In this document: one piece after another, positions 51,876-58,761 of the stretch
How the letters are laid out: each line of letters begins with the position of its first letter
Numbering within the stretch: position 1 is the first letter of the stretch
Notes under the pieces: generated by a model
Told to the model about the DNA's origin: nothing
Database searches by the model: none
The model's input: the letters and a program-made list of their open reading frames with translations, nothing else
Translations under genes and position numbers: made by a program
Assembly: GCF_000196895.1 (NCBI RefSeq)
Contig: NC_014297.1
Span: forward strand, 2,123,345 to 2,187,344
Reading direction: 5' to 3'
DNA length: 64,000 nt
DNA from: Halalkalicoccus jeotgali B3
GTDB taxonomy: Archaea > Halobacteriota > Halobacteria > Halobacteriales > Halalkalicoccaceae

Positions 51876-52493
51876 TCACTCCTCGAAGTCGAGCGCCTCG
51901 ATGAGCTGATCGGTCATCTCCTTGCGGCCGAGGTTGGCCTTGATGTCGTGGTCCTTCGCCAGCGACTGGAGTTCCCGATACGACAGCTCCTCTAGCTCCT
52001 CGCGACTCTCGGGGTCCTCTTCGTCCCCGGATTCGTCGTCCGATTCCCCACCGCCGTTCTCATTTCCCTCTTCGTCCTCCTCGTCCGTGCTCTCGACGTC
52101 CTCGTTTTCGTTCTCGTCGTCCTCGTCGTCCTCCTCGTCGTCGTCACCCGACTCCTCCGCGTCGTTCTCAGTTCCCTCCTCGTCGCCTGACTCCTCGTCC
52201 TCGCTCTCGTCTTGTGTGTCCTCCCCGTCTTCGGATCCGTCGTCGGCGTCCGATCCTCCGTCGTCCTCCTCGTCGTCGCCTCTGATCGATTCCTGGATCT
52301 GCCGGGCGATCGCTTCGCCGAGCTTCCGGCCGATGATCGCGCCGAGTGCGCCGCCGAGCGATTCGGCGAGCGATTTCTCGTCGTCGGCCTCGAAGGTGTC
52401 CTCGAGCTGGGTGCCCTCGAACAGCTCCTCGTAGTCGACGTTGTCGAGCAGTTTTTCGGTGTCGATGCTGTCGGCAAGGTTTGTGTCGCTCAT
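51876..52493 (-). CDS. Hyperacidic protein with glycine-zipper helix and SAP-like C-terminus
   Basis: A 205-residue protein in three parts. Residues 1-70: acidic helices then a small-residue helix ESLGGALGAIIGRKLGEAIA (glycine-zipper-like, amphipathic). Residues ~71-160: an almost pure Asp/Glu/Ser/Gly linker. Residues ~160-205: SREELEELSYRELQSLAKDH and DIKANLGRKEMTDQLIEAL, a helix-extended loop-helix like SAP/Rho-N/HeH domains. Last gene of the gvpA-gvpO transcription unit, where gvpC/gvpN usually lie. Not recognised as a Gvp family; possibly a scaffold. Confidence 0.75.
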   Translation of the reverse strand: MSDTNLADSIDTEKLLDNVDYEELFEGTQLEDTFEADDEKSLAESLGGALGAIIGRKLGEAIARQIQESIRGDDEEDDGGSDADDGSEDGEDTQDESEDEESGDEEGTENDAEESGDDDEEDDEDDENENEDVESTDEEDEEGNENGGGESDDESGDEEDPESREELEELSYRELQSLAKDHDIKANLGRKEMTDQLIEALDFEE

Positions 52494-52535
52494 TGTTGGC
52501 TCTGGGTGCCCACTGTGGGCTTGTCGGTTCGGGAT

Positions 52536-53369
52536 CTATGCGCTCGCGGCGTCGCCGTTGTCGCTGTCGTCGCTATCGTCGGCGCCCAGAAGCTGGTTGA
52601 CCAGTTCCTGAACGAACTGCGTGGCCAGCTCCTCGAGGGGCAACTCGTCGAGGATGCTGCCGAAGAAACTCCGCAGGCGCTCCGCTATTGCACTCCCGAA
52701 CGCCGCAATCCGCTCGCCGAGGGCCAGATCGGGCAGGAGCCCGCTCGAACCGTCGCCGTCCTCGCCCTCCTGGTCACCGTCGTCCCCGCCAAGCAGACCG
52801 TCCTCGCCCAGCAGACCGCCGTCCTCGTCGTCCCCGCCCAGCAGGCCGCCGCCGAGCAGGTCATCGAGGCCGAGCAGGCTCCCCAGATCGCCGCCGTCGA
52901 GCAGGCCGCCGACCGCCGACAGCAGGTTTCCGAGCAGGTTCCCCCCGCCGGGAATCGCGGTGATATCGAGGGTCACCTCGTCGAGGTCGACCTCCAACCC
53001 GAGGAGATCGAGGAACAGTCCATCGAGGTTGAGGTGGAGCACGCGGGTGCCCTCCTCGGATTCGGACTCCTCGCGGTCGCTCTCCTCTTCGTCACCCGTC
53101 TCGTTGTCCTCGGTTTGATCGTCCTCGTTTTCCCCTTCGGCGTCCGCTTGTTCGTCGCCTTCCTCGGTTTCGTCGTCTTCCTCGTCCTCGGTTCCCTCGG
53201 CGGACTCCCCTTCGCTGTCGGCTCCGTCCTCGGCGTCCGCTTGTTCGTCGCTTTCCTCCGTTTCGTCTTCCTCCTCGGGCGCTTCCTCCTCTCCCCCGTC
53301 GGGGAGCAGTACGCGCACGTGGACGCCATCGTCTCGACCAGCGGTCGTAGATTGGTCTACCATCGTCAT
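52536..53369 (-). CDS. Acidic Gly/Leu-rich protein of the gas vesicle cluster
   Basis: A 277-residue protein. Residues 1-~107 are Asp/Glu-rich with a repeated DEQADAE. Residues ~110-158 form a distinct hydrophobic block LHLNLDGLFLDLLGLEVDLD then EVTLDITAIPGGGNLLGNLL, a pattern I have seen in other haloarchaeal and bacterial hypothetical proteins. Residues ~159-195 are LLGG/DDL repeats; ~210-262 an amphipathic helix region. No signal peptide. Its place between gvpO and the SAP-like protein suggests a shell-surface or assembly role in place of GvpC; this is inference. Confidence 0.75.
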   Translation of the reverse strand: MTMVDQSTTAGRDDGVHVRVLLPDGGEEEAPEEEDETEESDEQADAEDGADSEGESAEGTEDEEDDETEEGDEQADAEGENEDDQTEDNETGDEEESDREESESEEGTRVLHLNLDGLFLDLLGLEVDLDEVTLDITAIPGGGNLLGNLLSAVGGLLDGGDLGSLLGLDDLLGGGLLGGDDEDGGLLGEDGLLGGDDGDQEGEDGDGSSGLLPDLALGERIAAFGSAIAERLRSFFGSILDELPLEELATQFVQELVNQLLGADDSDDSDNGDAASA

Positions 53370-53823: not shown

Positions 53824-54282
53824 TCAGACGTCCTGATCCATGTCGTCACGGCGATACCGGTGGGTTCGGCGGTAGCCGGTGATCTCGTGGTCGGCGTCGA
53901 GCGTGATCTCGTAGCGCCCGAGGATGTCCTGCGTATCGGGGACGCTCTTGCGTTCGAGGATCTCGACCGCCGCGACCCATCCTTCCTCGTTGTTGTCCTC
54001 GCCCCGGCTCCGATCGCGGTCGACGGAGACGACGCTCACGAGCGGACGGCCGATGAGGTCCGCTGCGACCTGCCTGATCTTTTCGCGTACCGTCCCGATC
54101 TCGGTTTCCGAGACGGAGTCGTTGTCTGCCATGTCTGAATCCTCCGATTGGTGGTCGTCGATCGTCTCGTCGTCGGGTCCGTGCTGGTAGCAGAACCCGT
54201 CGCCCTGTGCCGGCCGGGTGCATCGCTCGCCGCCCGAGGTCAGCGCCTGGCACTGCTCGTCGGCTGTCTCCGCGTCGGACAT
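53824..54282 (-). CDS. gvpO: Gas vesicle protein GvpO with N-terminal Cys/His knuckle
   Basis: A 152-residue GvpO. The C-terminal core (GWVAAVEILERKSVPDTQDI, LGRYEITLDADHEITGY, YRRDDMDQ) matches halophile GvpO, an essential accessory protein. The first ~37 residues are an added domain with Cys11, Cys21, Cys31 and His34 (CQALTSGGERC, FCYQHG), a zinc-knuckle pattern also seen in DUF5763-like fingers. An internal ATG (MADNDSVSETEIG, residue 51) could give a canonical short GvpO. Starts 12 bp after gvpA. Confidence 0.85.
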   Translation of the reverse strand: MSDAETADEQCQALTSGGERCTRPAQGDGFCYQHGPDDETIDDHQSEDSDMADNDSVSETEIGTVREKIRQVAADLIGRPLVSVVSVDRDRSRGEDNNEEGWVAAVEILERKSVPDTQDILGRYEITLDADHEITGYRRTHRYRRDDMDQDV

Positions 54283-54294
54283 GGGGGAGTCCGC

Positions 54295-54558
54295 TTACGA
54301 GGACTCGGCGGACGCCTCGATCTCGATGTCCTCGAGGTCGTCTAAGTCCCCCTCTTCCTCCGCTTGTTCGATCTTCGATATCTCCCTCGCATAGTGGAGG
54401 AACGTGTCAACGGAGGCGATCACGACGCGGGCCTCGACGGTGAGGATCTCGATCCCGACGAGCGAGACACGCACCCAGATGTCGATGACCGCACCCTTAT
54501 CGAGGATGCGATCGAGCACCTCTGCGAGGCTTGACGTGCTTGGTCTTGCTTGACTCAT
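54295..54558 (-). CDS. gvpA: Major gas vesicle structural protein GvpA
   Basis: Main rib protein of the gas vesicle shell, 87 aa. The core [20 protein letters not shown] then [20 protein letters not shown] and [15 protein letters not shown] matches GvpA almost residue for residue. The acidic tail ([21 protein letters not shown]) is longer than in Halobacterium GvpA (76 aa). Start [10 protein letters not shown] is supported by a Shine-Dalgarno-like gaaggga 8 nt upstream. Transcribed away from gvpF. Confidence 0.95.
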
Positions 54559-54687: not shown

Positions 54688-55317
54688 ATGACCGACGACG
54701 CACTCTACGTCTACGGCGTGATCGAAAACGAGGATCTCGACCTCGACATCGAGGGGGTCAACGGGGCCGAACGCGCGTACACAGTCAGCTATCAGTCGCT
54801 CGCGGCCGTCGTCTCGGACATCGACACCGTCGAGCCCGAACGCAGCGACGAGAACGTCCAGTGCCACGACGAGGTGCTCCAGACGATCCTCGAGCACGAC
54901 GGCGGCCGAACGGTCGTCCCGATGAGCTTCGGGATGGGGTTCAAGAACAAACGCACCCTGAAGAACGTCCTCCGGAACGCCCGACCGGTCTTTTCGCGGA
55001 CGTTACGGGAGATCGACGGGATGGTCGAACTCGGGCTGAAGGTCCTGACCGACGAGGACGCCGACGTCGACACCGACGAGATCGTCGCGGAGGTCGAGGA
55101 GCGCTTCGACCGGATAAGCGTTAACGTGGTGGAGAACCAACTGTTCAGCGATCGACTCGTGATAAACAGATCGTACCTCGTCGAACGCGCCGACCGGGAG
55201 GCGTTCAACGAGGCAGTCGGCGAGTTCGAGGACGACCACGACGAACTGTTGGTCCAGTATACGGGCCCGTGGGCACCGTACAACTTCGTCGACATCGAGA
55301 TCACGGCCCAACGCTAA
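54688..55317 (+). CDS. gvpF: Gas vesicle protein GvpF
   Basis: GvpF/L-family accessory protein, 209 aa. Contains ALYVYGVIENEDLDLDIEGV, ECHDEVLQ-type helix (VQCHDEVLQTILEHDGG), VVPMSFGMGFKNKRTLKNVL and the C-terminal YTGPWAPYNFVDIEI typical of the family. It is one of the minimal eight and in other haloarchaea contacts GvpA in early assembly. First gene of gvpF-G-H-[I]-J-K-L-M; next start is 2 bp away. Confidence 0.95.
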   Translation: MTDDALYVYGVIENEDLDLDIEGVNGAERAYTVSYQSLAAVVSDIDTVEPERSDENVQCHDEVLQTILEHDGGRTVVPMSFGMGFKNKRTLKNVLRNARPVFSRTLREIDGMVELGLKVLTDEDADVDTDEIVAEVEERFDRISVNVVENQLFSDRLVINRSYLVERADREAFNEAVGEFEDDHDELLVQYTGPWAPYNFVDIEITAQR

Positions 55318-55319
55318 CC

Positions 55320-55574
55320 ATGTTCATCGTCGACGACATCCTGTTTCAGCCGTTCATCTCGATCCTCGATGCGATCCACACGCTCGCGGTCACGGAGATG
55401 TACAACATCGAGGGGATCCAGAGCGACCTAAAGGAAAACCAGCTGCTGTACGAACTCGGCGAGCGCGACCAAAGCGAGTACGAAAGCCGCAAGGCCGAAC
55501 TCGAAGCCGAACTCGAGACGGCGGAGTTGGCACACGAACAGCTCGACAACAAGAACATCCAGATACGACAATGA
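55320..55574 (+). CDS. gvpG: Gas vesicle protein GvpG
   Basis: An 84-residue helical accessory protein: MFIVDDILFQPFISILDAIH, then YNIEGIQSDLKENQLLYELG and a charged coiled-coil C-terminus with many Glu/Lys. The match is to the GvpG family. Essential in the minimal haloarchaeal set. Overlaps gvpH by 4 bp. Confidence 0.92.
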   Translation: MFIVDDILFQPFISILDAIHTLAVTEMYNIEGIQSDLKENQLLYELGERDQSEYESRKAELEAELETAELAHEQLDNKNIQIRQ

Positions 55575-56068
55575 CCGACGACAACCACCGCGAGGCCTCC
55601 TCGCTGCTCGACGCACTCAGACACGTCGTCGAGACGCTACAGGAGGCGGAACAAAACGGCGAGAGAACGGGTGCGGGACACGGCAGCGTCTCGGGCAAAC
55701 ACGCCCGGACGGACTACGGGTTCAGGATCAGCACCGGCCCGGATCCGGACAGCCTCTGGGAGCGACTCGGCACCGACTCCGGCGAGGAGACCGAGCCGAC
55801 AGCCGATACGGACACGGACACCGACGATCACCTCGTCGACGTCCGTAGGGAGGACGACGGCCTGGTCGTGCTCGCGGACCTCCCGCAGGCGACCGCAGAG
55901 AGCATCACCGCCGGGATCGACCGGGCGGAAAACGACCTGGTCATCGGGTTCGACGGGGAGGTCGTCGACCGGATCGCGCTGGGCGACGCCGAAGTCGCCG
56001 TGGCCGACTCGACGTTCAGAAACGGCGTACTGGAGGTCCGACTGCGAACGGAGGAGGGTGAGTCGTGA
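55571..56068 (+). CDS. gvpH: Gas vesicle protein GvpH (Hsp20-like)
   Basis: A 165-residue protein. N-terminal DDNHREASSLLDALRHVVET and RTDYGFRISTGPD, an acidic linker, then an alpha-crystallin/Hsp20-type domain (HLVDVRREDDGLVVLADLPQ; VADSTFRNGVLEVRL). GvpH in Halobacterium behaves as a chaperone-like factor and is not strictly needed. Overlaps the next gene by 4 bp. Confidence 0.88.
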   Translation: MTDDNHREASSLLDALRHVVETLQEAEQNGERTGAGHGSVSGKHARTDYGFRISTGPDPDSLWERLGTDSGEETEPTADTDTDTDDHLVDVRREDDGLVVLADLPQATAESITAGIDRAENDLVIGFDGEVVDRIALGDAEVAVADSTFRNGVLEVRLRTEEGES

Positions 56069-56859
56069 GCGAAACCGAAACGGAAACCGACGCTGAGGTC
56101 GCCTCGATCCTCGACCGCCTCGAGGAGCTACTTCCGGGACTCGTCGACGGGATCGAGCAACTCAAGACCCAGATCGTCGAGGGCAGCGACGACGAGGAGG
56201 TCATCGAGACCGCCGAGAACATCTGGGAGATCGTCGACGAGGCCGAGGACGTCCTCGATACGATCGACCTCGATGAGCTTCCCGACACGATCGACCTCGA
56301 TGAGCTTCCCGACGCTATCGACGCCGAGGAGGTCCCCGAGGCGATCGCCGACGGCGACGCGCACGACGCGATCGATCTCTCGGCGCTCAAGGAGGCAATC
56401 GAACTCCGGGAGCTGTGGGAGGCCGTCGACCTCACTGACCTGCGCGAGCAGAAAGCGGACCTCGACGACGAGATCGACGACGTGACCGACGGCGACAGCG
56501 GCGACGACGGAGGGGTGCTCGATATGGATCTGGGGATGGGCGAGGGCGCACACATGAGTTTCGACCCCGAGAACCGCCAGGAGAAGATCCAACAGCTCAT
56601 CGAGACGGCGGTCCAGGGCTTTCGAACCGCGCTGCTCGAGACCCACGACAAGCTCCGGTTGCTCTACGAGTTCAACCAGGAGAAACTCGGCGGCAACGAC
56701 TCGCTGAACCCGACCGCGGTCTCGACGATGCCGAGTGGGCCGCTTGCGAACTCCGCCTCGACGCGTCACTCGACAGTGCCCTCGCAGGTGAAATACTCGC
56801 GAGCGAAAAACCCCCGCCGGATCTACGGCCGGCGCTTCGAGAACGCCAACACCGACTGA
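56065..56859 (+). CDS. gvpI: Nonapeptide-repeat protein at the gvpI position
   Basis: A 264-residue protein with GTG start, between gvpH and gvpJ where gvpI normally lies. Residues 1-64 are acidic helices; 65-127 are seven tandem 9-residue repeats of the form D-[AT]-I-D-L-x-E-L-x (DTIDLDELP, DTIDLDELP, DAIDAEEVP, EAIADGDAH, DAIDLSALK, EAIELRELW, EAVDLTDLR). The rest includes an acidic linker, a helix RQEKIQQLIETAVQGFRTAL and a basic C-terminus VKYSRAKNPRRIYGRRFEN. The basic tail is like GvpI; the long acidic repeat part is not known to me in GvpI. Symbol is positional. Confidence 0.7.
   Translation: MSETETETDAEVASILDRLEELLPGLVDGIEQLKTQIVEGSDDEEVIETAENIWEIVDEAEDVLDTIDLDELPDTIDLDELPDAIDAEEVPEAIADGDAHDAIDLSALKEAIELRELWEAVDLTDLREQKADLDDEIDDVTDGDSGDDGGVLDMDLGMGEGAHMSFDPENRQEKIQQLIETAVQGFRTALLETHDKLRLLYEFNQEKLGGNDSLNPTAVSTMPSGPLANSASTRHSTVPSQVKYSRAKNPRRIYGRRFENANTD
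56260..56313 (+). repeat. Perfect 27-bp tandem repeat inside the gvpI-position gene
   Basis: Two identical 27-bp units (56260-56286 and 56287-56313) encode two copies of TIDLDELPD. Identity at the DNA level suggests recent slippage; the flanking five diverged nonapeptide units suggest a longer history of repeat expansion. Confidence 0.85.
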
Positions 56860-56862
56860 ACC

Positions 56863-57294
56863 ATGAGCGACGCACGACCCACACGACAGAAGAGCGACCT
56901 GGCGGACGTCCTCGAACTCGTCCTCGATAAGGGGATCGTCATCAACGCCGACATCGCGGTGACCGTCGGCGAGACCGAACTGCTCGGAATCGAGATCCGG
57001 GCAGCGATCGCCTCCTTCGAGACCGCCGCCGAGTACGGACTCGCCTTCCCCACCGGCACCGATATGCGCCGGGTCGAACAGGCCTCCGGGCGCGAACCCC
57101 TCGAGGTCGAAAACAACGAGGAGGTGAACCTCGGGATCAACGCGAGCGACGGGGGATCGAACGAGGACAGCGACCCGCCGAGCGCCCGTCCGGATCCCGA
57201 GGTCCCGATCTCGACGAACGAGGGTTCGGAGTCCGGCACCGACGCGAGCGACGGAGATGACGGGGACGGCGAGGACGAACCGGAGGACTCATGA
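56863..57294 (+). CDS. gvpJ: Gas vesicle protein GvpJ
   Basis: GvpA-family minor protein, 143 aa. The shell-type core is LADVLELVLDKGIVINADIA, VTVGETELLGIEIRAAIASF and EYGLAFPTGTDMRRVEQA. A long acidic Ser/Asp/Gly tail follows. Member of the minimal eight, thought to shape the conical tips or nucleate. Overlaps gvpK by 4 bp. Confidence 0.93.
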   Translation: MSDARPTRQKSDLADVLELVLDKGIVINADIAVTVGETELLGIEIRAAIASFETAAEYGLAFPTGTDMRRVEQASGREPLEVENNEEVNLGINASDGGSNEDSDPPSARPDPEVPISTNEGSESGTDASDGDDGDGEDEPEDS

Positions 57295-57623
57295 GACAGA
57301 TCGACCTCGGTGGCGAGGCCGACGAGGGTGGCGAGACGGACGCGGCCTCCGGACTGTTGGCGCTCGTGATGACCGTCGTCGAGTTGCTCGTCGAGGCGAT
57401 GGAAAAGGAGGCGATCCGTCGTATGGAGTCGGGCGTCCTCTCTCCAGAGGAGATCGAACGGCTGGGCACCCAACTCCAGGCCATCGAGGACGAAATCGAG
57501 GCCATCAAGGAGCGAGAGGGGATCGAAAACGACGTCGGGGAGCTCCGTACCGAGCTCAACGACCTGCTCAGCGAGGGGATCGAGCGGGTCTACGACGATC
57601 ACTACGAGGAGCTGGAACGATGA
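57291..57623 (+). CDS. gvpK: Gas vesicle protein GvpK
   Basis: A 110-residue GvpK family protein: SGLLALVMTVVELLVEAMEK, AIRRMESGVLSPEEIERLG and a coiled-coil EIEAIKEREGIENDVGELR. Minimal-set accessory protein. Overlaps gvpL by 4 bp. Confidence 0.94.
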   Translation: MRQIDLGGEADEGGETDAASGLLALVMTVVELLVEAMEKEAIRRMESGVLSPEEIERLGTQLQAIEDEIEAIKEREGIENDVGELRTELNDLLSEGIERVYDDHYEELER

Positions 57624-58444
57624 GCACCGCCGGCACGGAGTTCGAGGTGGGACGATACCTCTACTGTGCCGTGCGGGCCGACGATGACCCCTCGATCTCT
57701 GTCGCGGGGATAGAGGACGGCGAGGTGCGGATCGTCACCGCCGAGGGGATCGGCGCGGTCGTCCAGCCGGTCGAGGCGATGTTCGATTCGGACGACCTCA
57801 CGGAGGTCAGACGGTGGTTACTCAGTCACCAGCGCGTGGTCGACGCCGTCGGCGAGTCCTTCGATACGCCCGTCCCCTTCCGGTTCGACACCGTCATCAA
57901 GGGCGACGACGAGCGCGTCGAAAACTGGATCACCGAGAACGCAACACAGCTCGAGGCCGCACTGGAGTCGCTGTCGGGCTGCTGGGAGTACCGGATCGAG
58001 CTTCGCTGGGACGAGTCGCGAGTCCGCGAGGAGATCGCACGCGATGACGAAGAACTCGCGGCGCTCCAAGCACGCATCGACGACGCGAGCGAGGGAACGG
58101 GCTACCTGCTCGAAAAGCAGTACGAACAGCACCTCACCGAGCGCCTCCAGGGGCGCCGGGACGACCTCGCGGGGCAACTCTACGATCGGGTCGCAGAACA
58201 CGCACGAGCGGTCGAGACGGCCGGAAACCAGTCGACGCTGCTTGGGGCGGACGGGACGAACGGGAGCGACGACGGGTTCGAGACGGTGATCGAGCTGTCG
58301 GTGCTCGCCCCCGAGGACCATGAGGGAGTCATCGGCGACGTCTTAGAGGAGTTCATCGACCGCGATGGGTTCGACGTCAACTACACGGGGCCGTGGCCGC
58401 CGTACTCGCACGCACCGACGATCGGAGACGGGGGTGAGGGCTGA
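57620..58444 (+). CDS. gvpL: Gas vesicle protein GvpL
   Basis: GvpF/L-family protein, 274 aa, second member in the cluster. Landmarks: GRYLYCAVRADDDPSISVAG, VPFRFDTVIKGDDERVENW, and C-terminal FDVNYTGPWPPYSHAPT. Interacts with several accessory proteins in other haloarchaea. Its ATG overlaps the gvpK stop; gvpM starts on its last base. Confidence 0.94.
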   Translation: MSTAGTEFEVGRYLYCAVRADDDPSISVAGIEDGEVRIVTAEGIGAVVQPVEAMFDSDDLTEVRRWLLSHQRVVDAVGESFDTPVPFRFDTVIKGDDERVENWITENATQLEAALESLSGCWEYRIELRWDESRVREEIARDDEELAALQARIDDASEGTGYLLEKQYEQHLTERLQGRRDDLAGQLYDRVAEHARAVETAGNQSTLLGADGTNGSDDGFETVIELSVLAPEDHEGVIGDVLEEFIDRDGFDVNYTGPWPPYSHAPTIGDGGEG

Positions 58445-58761
58445 TGGAGCCGGCACGCCCCGAGGGCCACGCGATCGTCGACGTGCTCGACGTCCTGTTG
58501 ACCGACGGGGCGATCGTCCAAGCCGACGTGGTCGTCACCGTCGCGGACATCCCGCTCGTGGGAATCAACCTCCGGGCGGCGATCGCTGGCATGACGACGA
58601 TGGTCGAGTACGACATCTTCACCGAGTGGGACGAGGAGATCCGGAGCCAGGAGCGGTATCGACACTCCGAGTTCGGCCGGCGGCCGCGTCCGAGCGTGCC
58701 CGATCCTTCGGGTTCGGATCCCGAGACCGACACGGGCCCCGCGGACCCGGACGAACGGTAA
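58444..58761 (+). CDS. gvpM: Gas vesicle protein GvpM
   Basis: GvpA-family minor protein, 105 aa. Core: AIVDVLDVLLTDGAIVQADV, VVTVADIPLVGINLRAAIAG and EYDIFTEWDEEIRSQERYR. Ends in a Pro/Asp tail. Member of the minimal eight; last gene of the F-M unit. Followed 31 bp later by ribH, which has its own TATA-like element. Confidence 0.93.
   Translation: MEPARPEGHAIVDVLDVLLTDGAIVQADVVVTVADIPLVGINLRAAIAGMTTMVEYDIFTEWDEEIRSQERYRHSEFGRRPRPSVPDPSGSDPETDTGPADPDER

Follow-up and report, generated by a model that had tools for sequence, protein, structure and literature searches.

The window, a 64,000-nucleotide stretch of the Halalkalicoccus jeotgali B3 genome, holds a gas-vesicle gene cluster with gvpFGHIJKLM on the forward strand and gvpA and gvpO on the reverse strand, the latter accompanied by three unnamed acidic or zinc-ribbon-like genes (Table 1). 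The GTG start codon of gvpI overlaps the gvpH stop, and the gvpH-I-J order within the FGHIJKLM operon agrees with the first-pass annotation, which had placed a repeat protein at the gvpI position and had noted that a repeat protein like GvpC is otherwise missing. The latter also holds: no gvpC lies between gvpA and gvpO, and PF05465, the GvpC repeat family, has no match anywhere in the B3 genome. A GvpN scoring above the family cut-off is encoded far from the cluster (C1:1226235-1226999), as is likewise seen in relatives.

Table 1. Features of the gas-vesicle gene cluster in the window and of the long GvpI protein
Feature	Coordinates	Strand	Basis or remark
Unnamed acidic neighbour, SAP-like C-terminus	51876..52493	-	N-terminus SIDTEKLLDNVDYEELFEG resembles two ladder units
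Unnamed acidic Gly/Leu-rich neighbour, travels with the SAP-like gene	52536..53369	-	
gvpO	53824..54282	-	PF05800, E 1.6e-22
gvpA, extended acidic C-terminal tail	54295..54558	-	
gvpF	54688..55317	+	PF06386, E 2e-44
gvpG	55317..55574	+	NF045779, E 1.7e-38
gvpH (Hsp20-like; GvpI partner in Halobacterium)	55571..56068	+	PF05455, E 3.7e-20
gvpI, long form, 264 aa	56065..56859	+	Homologues with the same gvpH-I-J order
N-terminal helical segment capping the ladder (predicted), residues 3-64	56071..56256	+	AlphaFold2 helices 3-39 and 43-64
Nine-residue ladder, 7 units, residues 65-127, net charge -20	56257..56445	+	
Unit 4 (EAIADGDAH), degenerate ladder break	56338..56364	+	Homologues show 1-2 residue indels here
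C-terminal capping helix of the ladder (predicted), residues 122-140	56428..56484	+	AlphaFold2
GvpI core, residues 166-264: helix, then conserved motifs; basic, pI 9.5	56560..56856	+	Alignment with Halobacterium-like GvpI
RRIYGRRF signature, residues 250-257; R251 and R256 invariant	56812..56835	+	
gvpJ	56863..57294	+	NF046090, E 3.1e-42
gvpK, gvpL, gvpM	57291..58761	+	gvpL: NF045778, E 1.2e-103; gvpK and gvpM: gene order and tblastn homology

The repeat block of GvpI is confirmed. As first described, it splits exactly and without linkers into seven nine-residue units, in order DTIDLDELP, DTIDLDELP, DAIDAEEVP, EAIADGDAH, DAIDLSALK, EAIELRELW and EAVDLTDLR. Scored against the pattern [DE]-[ATSV]-[IVLF]-[DE]-[LIVFA]-x-x-[LIVFM]-x, 39 of 42 constrained positions fit, far above chance: in 5000 shuffles that kept the composition of the N-terminal 150 residues, the highest score was 27 and none reached 39. 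Self-identity of the protein peaks at lags of 9, 18 and 27, and Tandem Repeats Finder independently detects a DNA repeat of period 27 at 56256-56347. When 1160 acidic frames of at least 80 amino acids from the window and 41 other loci were scanned with the pattern, the top 18 were all GvpI homologues (score at least 31), and the highest-scoring other frame reached 24. The pattern is less strict than had been proposed, as unit 4 lacks L/V at positions 5 and 8. Since this degenerate unit is also where homologues carry indels, the array is better described as 3+1+3 than as seven equal units. Nor are two units identical in DNA; units 1 and 2 encode the same peptide with a single mismatch among 27 bases (GAT/GAC).

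The C-terminal part of the protein is an ordinary GvpI core. Alignment with a Halobacterium-like homologue (L022), which is 67% identical to the GvpI of pNRC100 and whose closest named relatives, on pNRC100 and other plasmids, are annotated GvpI, reveals the motifs NPTAxSTMP, STVP and RRIYGRRF common to Halobacterium-type GvpI. The Halobacterium salinarum protein (pNRC100 VNG_RS13760) likewise lies between gvpH and gvpJ and has the C-terminal helix, NPTAxSTMP, STVP and R-x-YGxR. It differs in being a basic protein of 144 amino acids that lacks the acidic N-terminal domain and the nine-residue repeats; the characterised Halobacterium GvpIs thus do not already contain the block. A basic, Lys/Arg-rich N-terminus is a property of Halobacterium GvpI (PMC7688916), and the short GvpIs are basic overall. 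The H. jeotgali protein is neither basic overall nor Lys/Arg-rich at its N-terminus, its charge being -53 in the N-terminal part (pI 4.05) and +3 in the C-terminal part (pI 9.5). As the basic nature describes the Halobacterium protein and does not define the family, this mismatch marks a variant form.

The first-pass annotation had suggested a solenoid or amphipathic helical ladder, and structure prediction with AlphaFold2 is in favour of a regular nine-residue solenoid and not of disorder. With the whole protein and a 50-sequence alignment, the ladder was modelled as short helices with single bridge residues between them. For residues 40-143 alone, the best model (mean pLDDT 86.3, pTM 0.56) places beta bridges at residues 67, 76, 85, 103, 112 and 121, all of them position 3 of a unit (units 1, 2, 3, 5, 6 and 7), and unit 4 is absorbed into a longer helix. 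The five models of this segment disagree, with pLDDT ranging from 47 to 86, so the fold stays a prediction, obtained with a method that can over-predict solenoids for tandem repeats. Comparison of the predicted model with the PDB using Foldseek returned no significant match (best E 0.62 for the whole protein and 1.2 for the domain), and neither did comparison with viral structures. In a PDB sequence search, a match to a LIM-domain entry (E 1e-13) was rejected as repetitive and compositionally biased, and the remaining matches had E above 0.1. RTX nonapeptide repeats, whose signature is GGxGxDxUx, share with the ladder the nine-residue period, the acidity and the solenoid form. They differ in the glycine pattern, which the ladder lacks, and in being a pure beta-roll, whereas the model of the ladder contains helices; none of 29 ladder sequences matched an RTX family in Pfam, and the signature was not found in the ladder.

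The ladder is not peculiar to the H. jeotgali genome. A first homologue search found GvpI relatives in 22 of 59 related genomes. When a profile was run against 391 genomes of the class, 163 proved to have a GvpI; counted from the profile-search table, the match was strong in 146 of these (E no higher than 4e-55) and only weak in the other 17 (E no lower than 7e-19). Of the 391 haloarchaeal genomes searched, 162 have a GvpA-type gene, and by the same count the ladder form occurs in 146 of them (about 90%); the short basic, ladder-less GvpI of Halobacterium is the minority form. In an alignment of 50 distinct long GvpIs, most of them 35-80% identical to the H. jeotgali protein, the units stay in register. 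The ladder spans 63 residues in 34 of these, and in 15 its length deviates at unit 4 (-1 to +2 residues); the remaining one (L024) is shorter by exactly one nine-residue unit. Within units, D at position 4, I/V at position 3, L at position 8 and A at position 2 are most conserved, and W118, D122 and P73 are near-invariant. The block is therefore a conserved acidic domain fronting a long GvpI and no local expansion.

In the ladder clusters examined, gvpI belongs to the accessory operon, where gvpH and gvpJ flank it. The H. jeotgali protein matched no Pfam or NCBIfam model above cut-off, a Pfam scan of all long GvpIs and ladders gave scattered chance matches only, and plasmid records of Natrinema, Haladaptatus, Natronorubrum and Halocatena label the long form a hypothetical protein. 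A ladder-only profile, run against 20 selected genomes and afterwards against 295 of the phylum, matched GvpI relatives and produced no other convincing match; it had no match in the GvpC-type genomes tried, and gvp-less genomes gave none below 0.04. The expectation that similar repeats occur in unrelated haloarchaeal proteins was therefore not borne out, apart from weak look-alikes in a single neighbour family, the SAP-like one. A single-protein search of genome contigs found two loci in Halalkalicoccus paucihalophilus, where contig 13 carries a second, partial cluster with gvpH, I, J, K, M and A, in which gvpF, gvpG and gvpL were not found. Extra copies of ladder GvpI were also seen outside complete gvp clusters at four loci (L067, L076, L137 and, in the B3 genome itself, L065 at C2:197902), standing alone, next to an orphan gvpA, or between homoserine-kinase-like and pdxS-like genes; such stand-alone genes hint at another role.

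The distribution of the ladder is complementary to that of GvpC. Multi-repeat PF05465 matches were found in 14 genomes, none of which is among the 146 with a long GvpI. Thirteen of the 14 have a short GvpI that aligns only to the C-terminal part of the profile, and in the other (G228), whose gvp cluster lies on a short contig, no GvpI was found. Two further genomes (G058 and G255) each have a lone weak match at a distance from the gvp cluster, which was not counted. Pfam overlooks divergent GvpCs, one of which occurs in genome G258 together with a short GvpI and has a stretch at its end similar to the SAP-like one. Another belongs to a gvpACNO set in genome G032 (L124) that is separate from the ladder-type cluster of the same genome; no accessory genes were found with it in the 20 kb examined. 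All intact GvpC-bearing clusters examined have a short GvpI and no ladder cluster examined has a GvpC. The exclusivity of GvpC and ladder holds for these clusters; in the remaining genomes the absence of GvpC rests on PF05465, with its blindness to divergent forms. The two cluster types differ also in GvpA, which continues after the FLHYA motif as an acidic tail of 25-60 residues in ladder clusters versus 17-24 residues in GvpC clusters. A short tail was likewise seen at two loci with a divergent GvpC, GvpA having been compared in the window and at L066-L084 and L109-L124. The idea that the tail mimics a ladder unit was set aside, its hydrophobic spacing being by eye 3,3,2 versus 2,3,4 in the ladder. 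A link between GvpN and GvpC was rejected, since many long-GvpI genomes of one family (f8) have gvpN; in Natrinema, gvpA and gvpN are adjacent without gvpC. In a concatenated tree of eight other Gvps the GvpC clusters form one clade (bootstrap 100), which G258 joins; the pattern is therefore taken as a single event in evolution and not as repeated replacement. Both cluster types were found inside the same three genera (g6, g25 and g29), which suggests that clusters were swapped as wholes and did not mix.

The SAP-like neighbour has a recurrent layout of two ladder-like nine-mers, a glycine-zipper-like helix and an acidic linker, seen in the window and at six further loci (L061, L066, L069, L072, L073 and L125). 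Relatives of the acidic and SAP-like neighbours also occur in stand-alone operons away from gvp clusters (L134, L135, L136, L138, L139 and again L125), which also encode a GvpI-like protein whose ladder is degenerate and which has HSTMP motifs.

We consider it somewhat probable that the long GvpI is an accessory protein of gas-vesicle assembly, present as a minor component and not as a stoichiometric coat, and that its N-terminal repeats form an acidic mini-solenoid domain. This domain is of near-fixed size, is fused to the basic GvpI core and belongs to GvpC-less clusters in all cases examined. In the predicted fold, each unit would contribute one beta-bridge residue, the I/V at position 3, and a short helix N-capped by the strongly conserved D at position 4, the units being stacked between two capping helices. 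As the long form keeps the gene position and core of GvpI, we infer that it is an assembly factor to which a rigid acidic arm has been added. In Halobacterium, GvpI is non-essential, contacts GvpH strongly and also GvpL, promotes oligomers of GvpJ, GvpK and GvpM, and its loss leads to extremely long cylinders (PMC7688916); the accessory Gvps are produced at low levels, and GvpI shows no direct binding to GvpA, which it reaches only through other proteins (PMC9372576). This low abundance and lack of direct GvpA binding make an assembly role likelier than a coat for ladder GvpI too. The long protein would then be two-ended: by analogy with Halobacterium, its basic tail may contact the GvpH/GvpL/GvpF assembly complex, and the rigid acidic ladder may offer a second binding surface on that complex, controlling nucleation and length. 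A counterpoint is that Halobacterium GvpI functions without a ladder, and several species with the ladder cluster type are reported to form no gas vesicles (PMC4390858).

A coat function would follow if ladder GvpI replaced GvpC and reinforced the GvpA shell from outside. Both are tandem-repeat proteins of gvp clusters, and their mutual exclusion, to which the divergent gvpC loci of G258 and G032 conform, the different GvpA tails and the seemingly wholesale swapping of clusters within genera fit such a replacement. We nevertheless regard it as unlikely. The single GvpC clade reduces the pattern to one event and the Halobacterium protein does not bind GvpA (PMC9372576). Moreover, the halobacterial shell coat is built of 32-residue repeats encoded directly after gvpA, with gvpN and gvpO, whereas gvpI lies in the opposite, weakly expressed accessory operon, the ladder has no sequence similarity to GvpC, and PF05465 repeats of about 32 residues were found neither in the B3 genome nor in the ladder sequences.

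Alternatively, the ladder could be a docking platform for the two acidic neighbours (51876-53369) and their relatives, like nine-residue units stacking on one another. The paired nine-mers that open the SAP-like protein are kept across genera, hhalign pairs them with the ladder over 19 columns at 42% identity, and neighbour-type genes accompany a degenerate-ladder GvpI relative in the stand-alone operons of Natrialbaceae-type and other genomes; with an hhalign match as weak as this (probability 13.5%, E 0.0021) and many ladder clusters devoid of a clear SAP-like gene, we hold this to be improbable. Haloarchaeal proteins are generally acidic, and slippage can expand repeats, as units 1 and 2, one base apart, might suggest; the block might on these grounds be acidic low-complexity sequence adapted to high salt, for the most part disordered and without a specific role. 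This is the least credible of the three, given that register, hydrophobic positions and unit number are kept across many genera at 30-50% identity, that W118, D122 and P73 hardly vary, that no other acidic frame comes close to the pattern and that the best model predicts helices with good confidence.

An N-terminal extension of GvpI was described in 2012 for Nmag_0338 of Natrialba magadii and Htur_2370 of Haloterrigena turkmenica, whose gvp clusters have no GvpC, and noted as absent from Halobacterium GvpI (PMC3403918); these proteins very probably represent the same long form. The passage of that paper dealing with them is silent on repeats and fold, on how widely the form occurs among taxa and on any connection with GvpC across clusters. 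It was the only report of the extension found, and the repeats, their fold, their spread and the associations with GvpC and GvpA seem not to be described in the literature searched, subscription journals aside.

Haloarchaeal Gvp experiments in the work cited here use Halobacterium clusters, with GvpC and a short GvpI; by the count given above, about 90% of haloarchaeal gvp-bearing genomes carry the other, ladder form. A bolder reading, which we hold to be rather unlikely, pictures a GvpC-free route in which ladder GvpI and tailed GvpA, joined in some lineages by acidic SAP-like partners, shape or strengthen the shell; it would be commoner than the textbook GvpC route with its short GvpI and tail-less GvpA, and would employ a mini-solenoid fold unseen in solved structures. 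As a very short repeat fold, the ladder is worth solving. Should it determine how long or how strong vesicles become in the absence of GvpC, it would provide a new handle on shell shaping, which may also be useful for engineered vesicles in ultrasound imaging.
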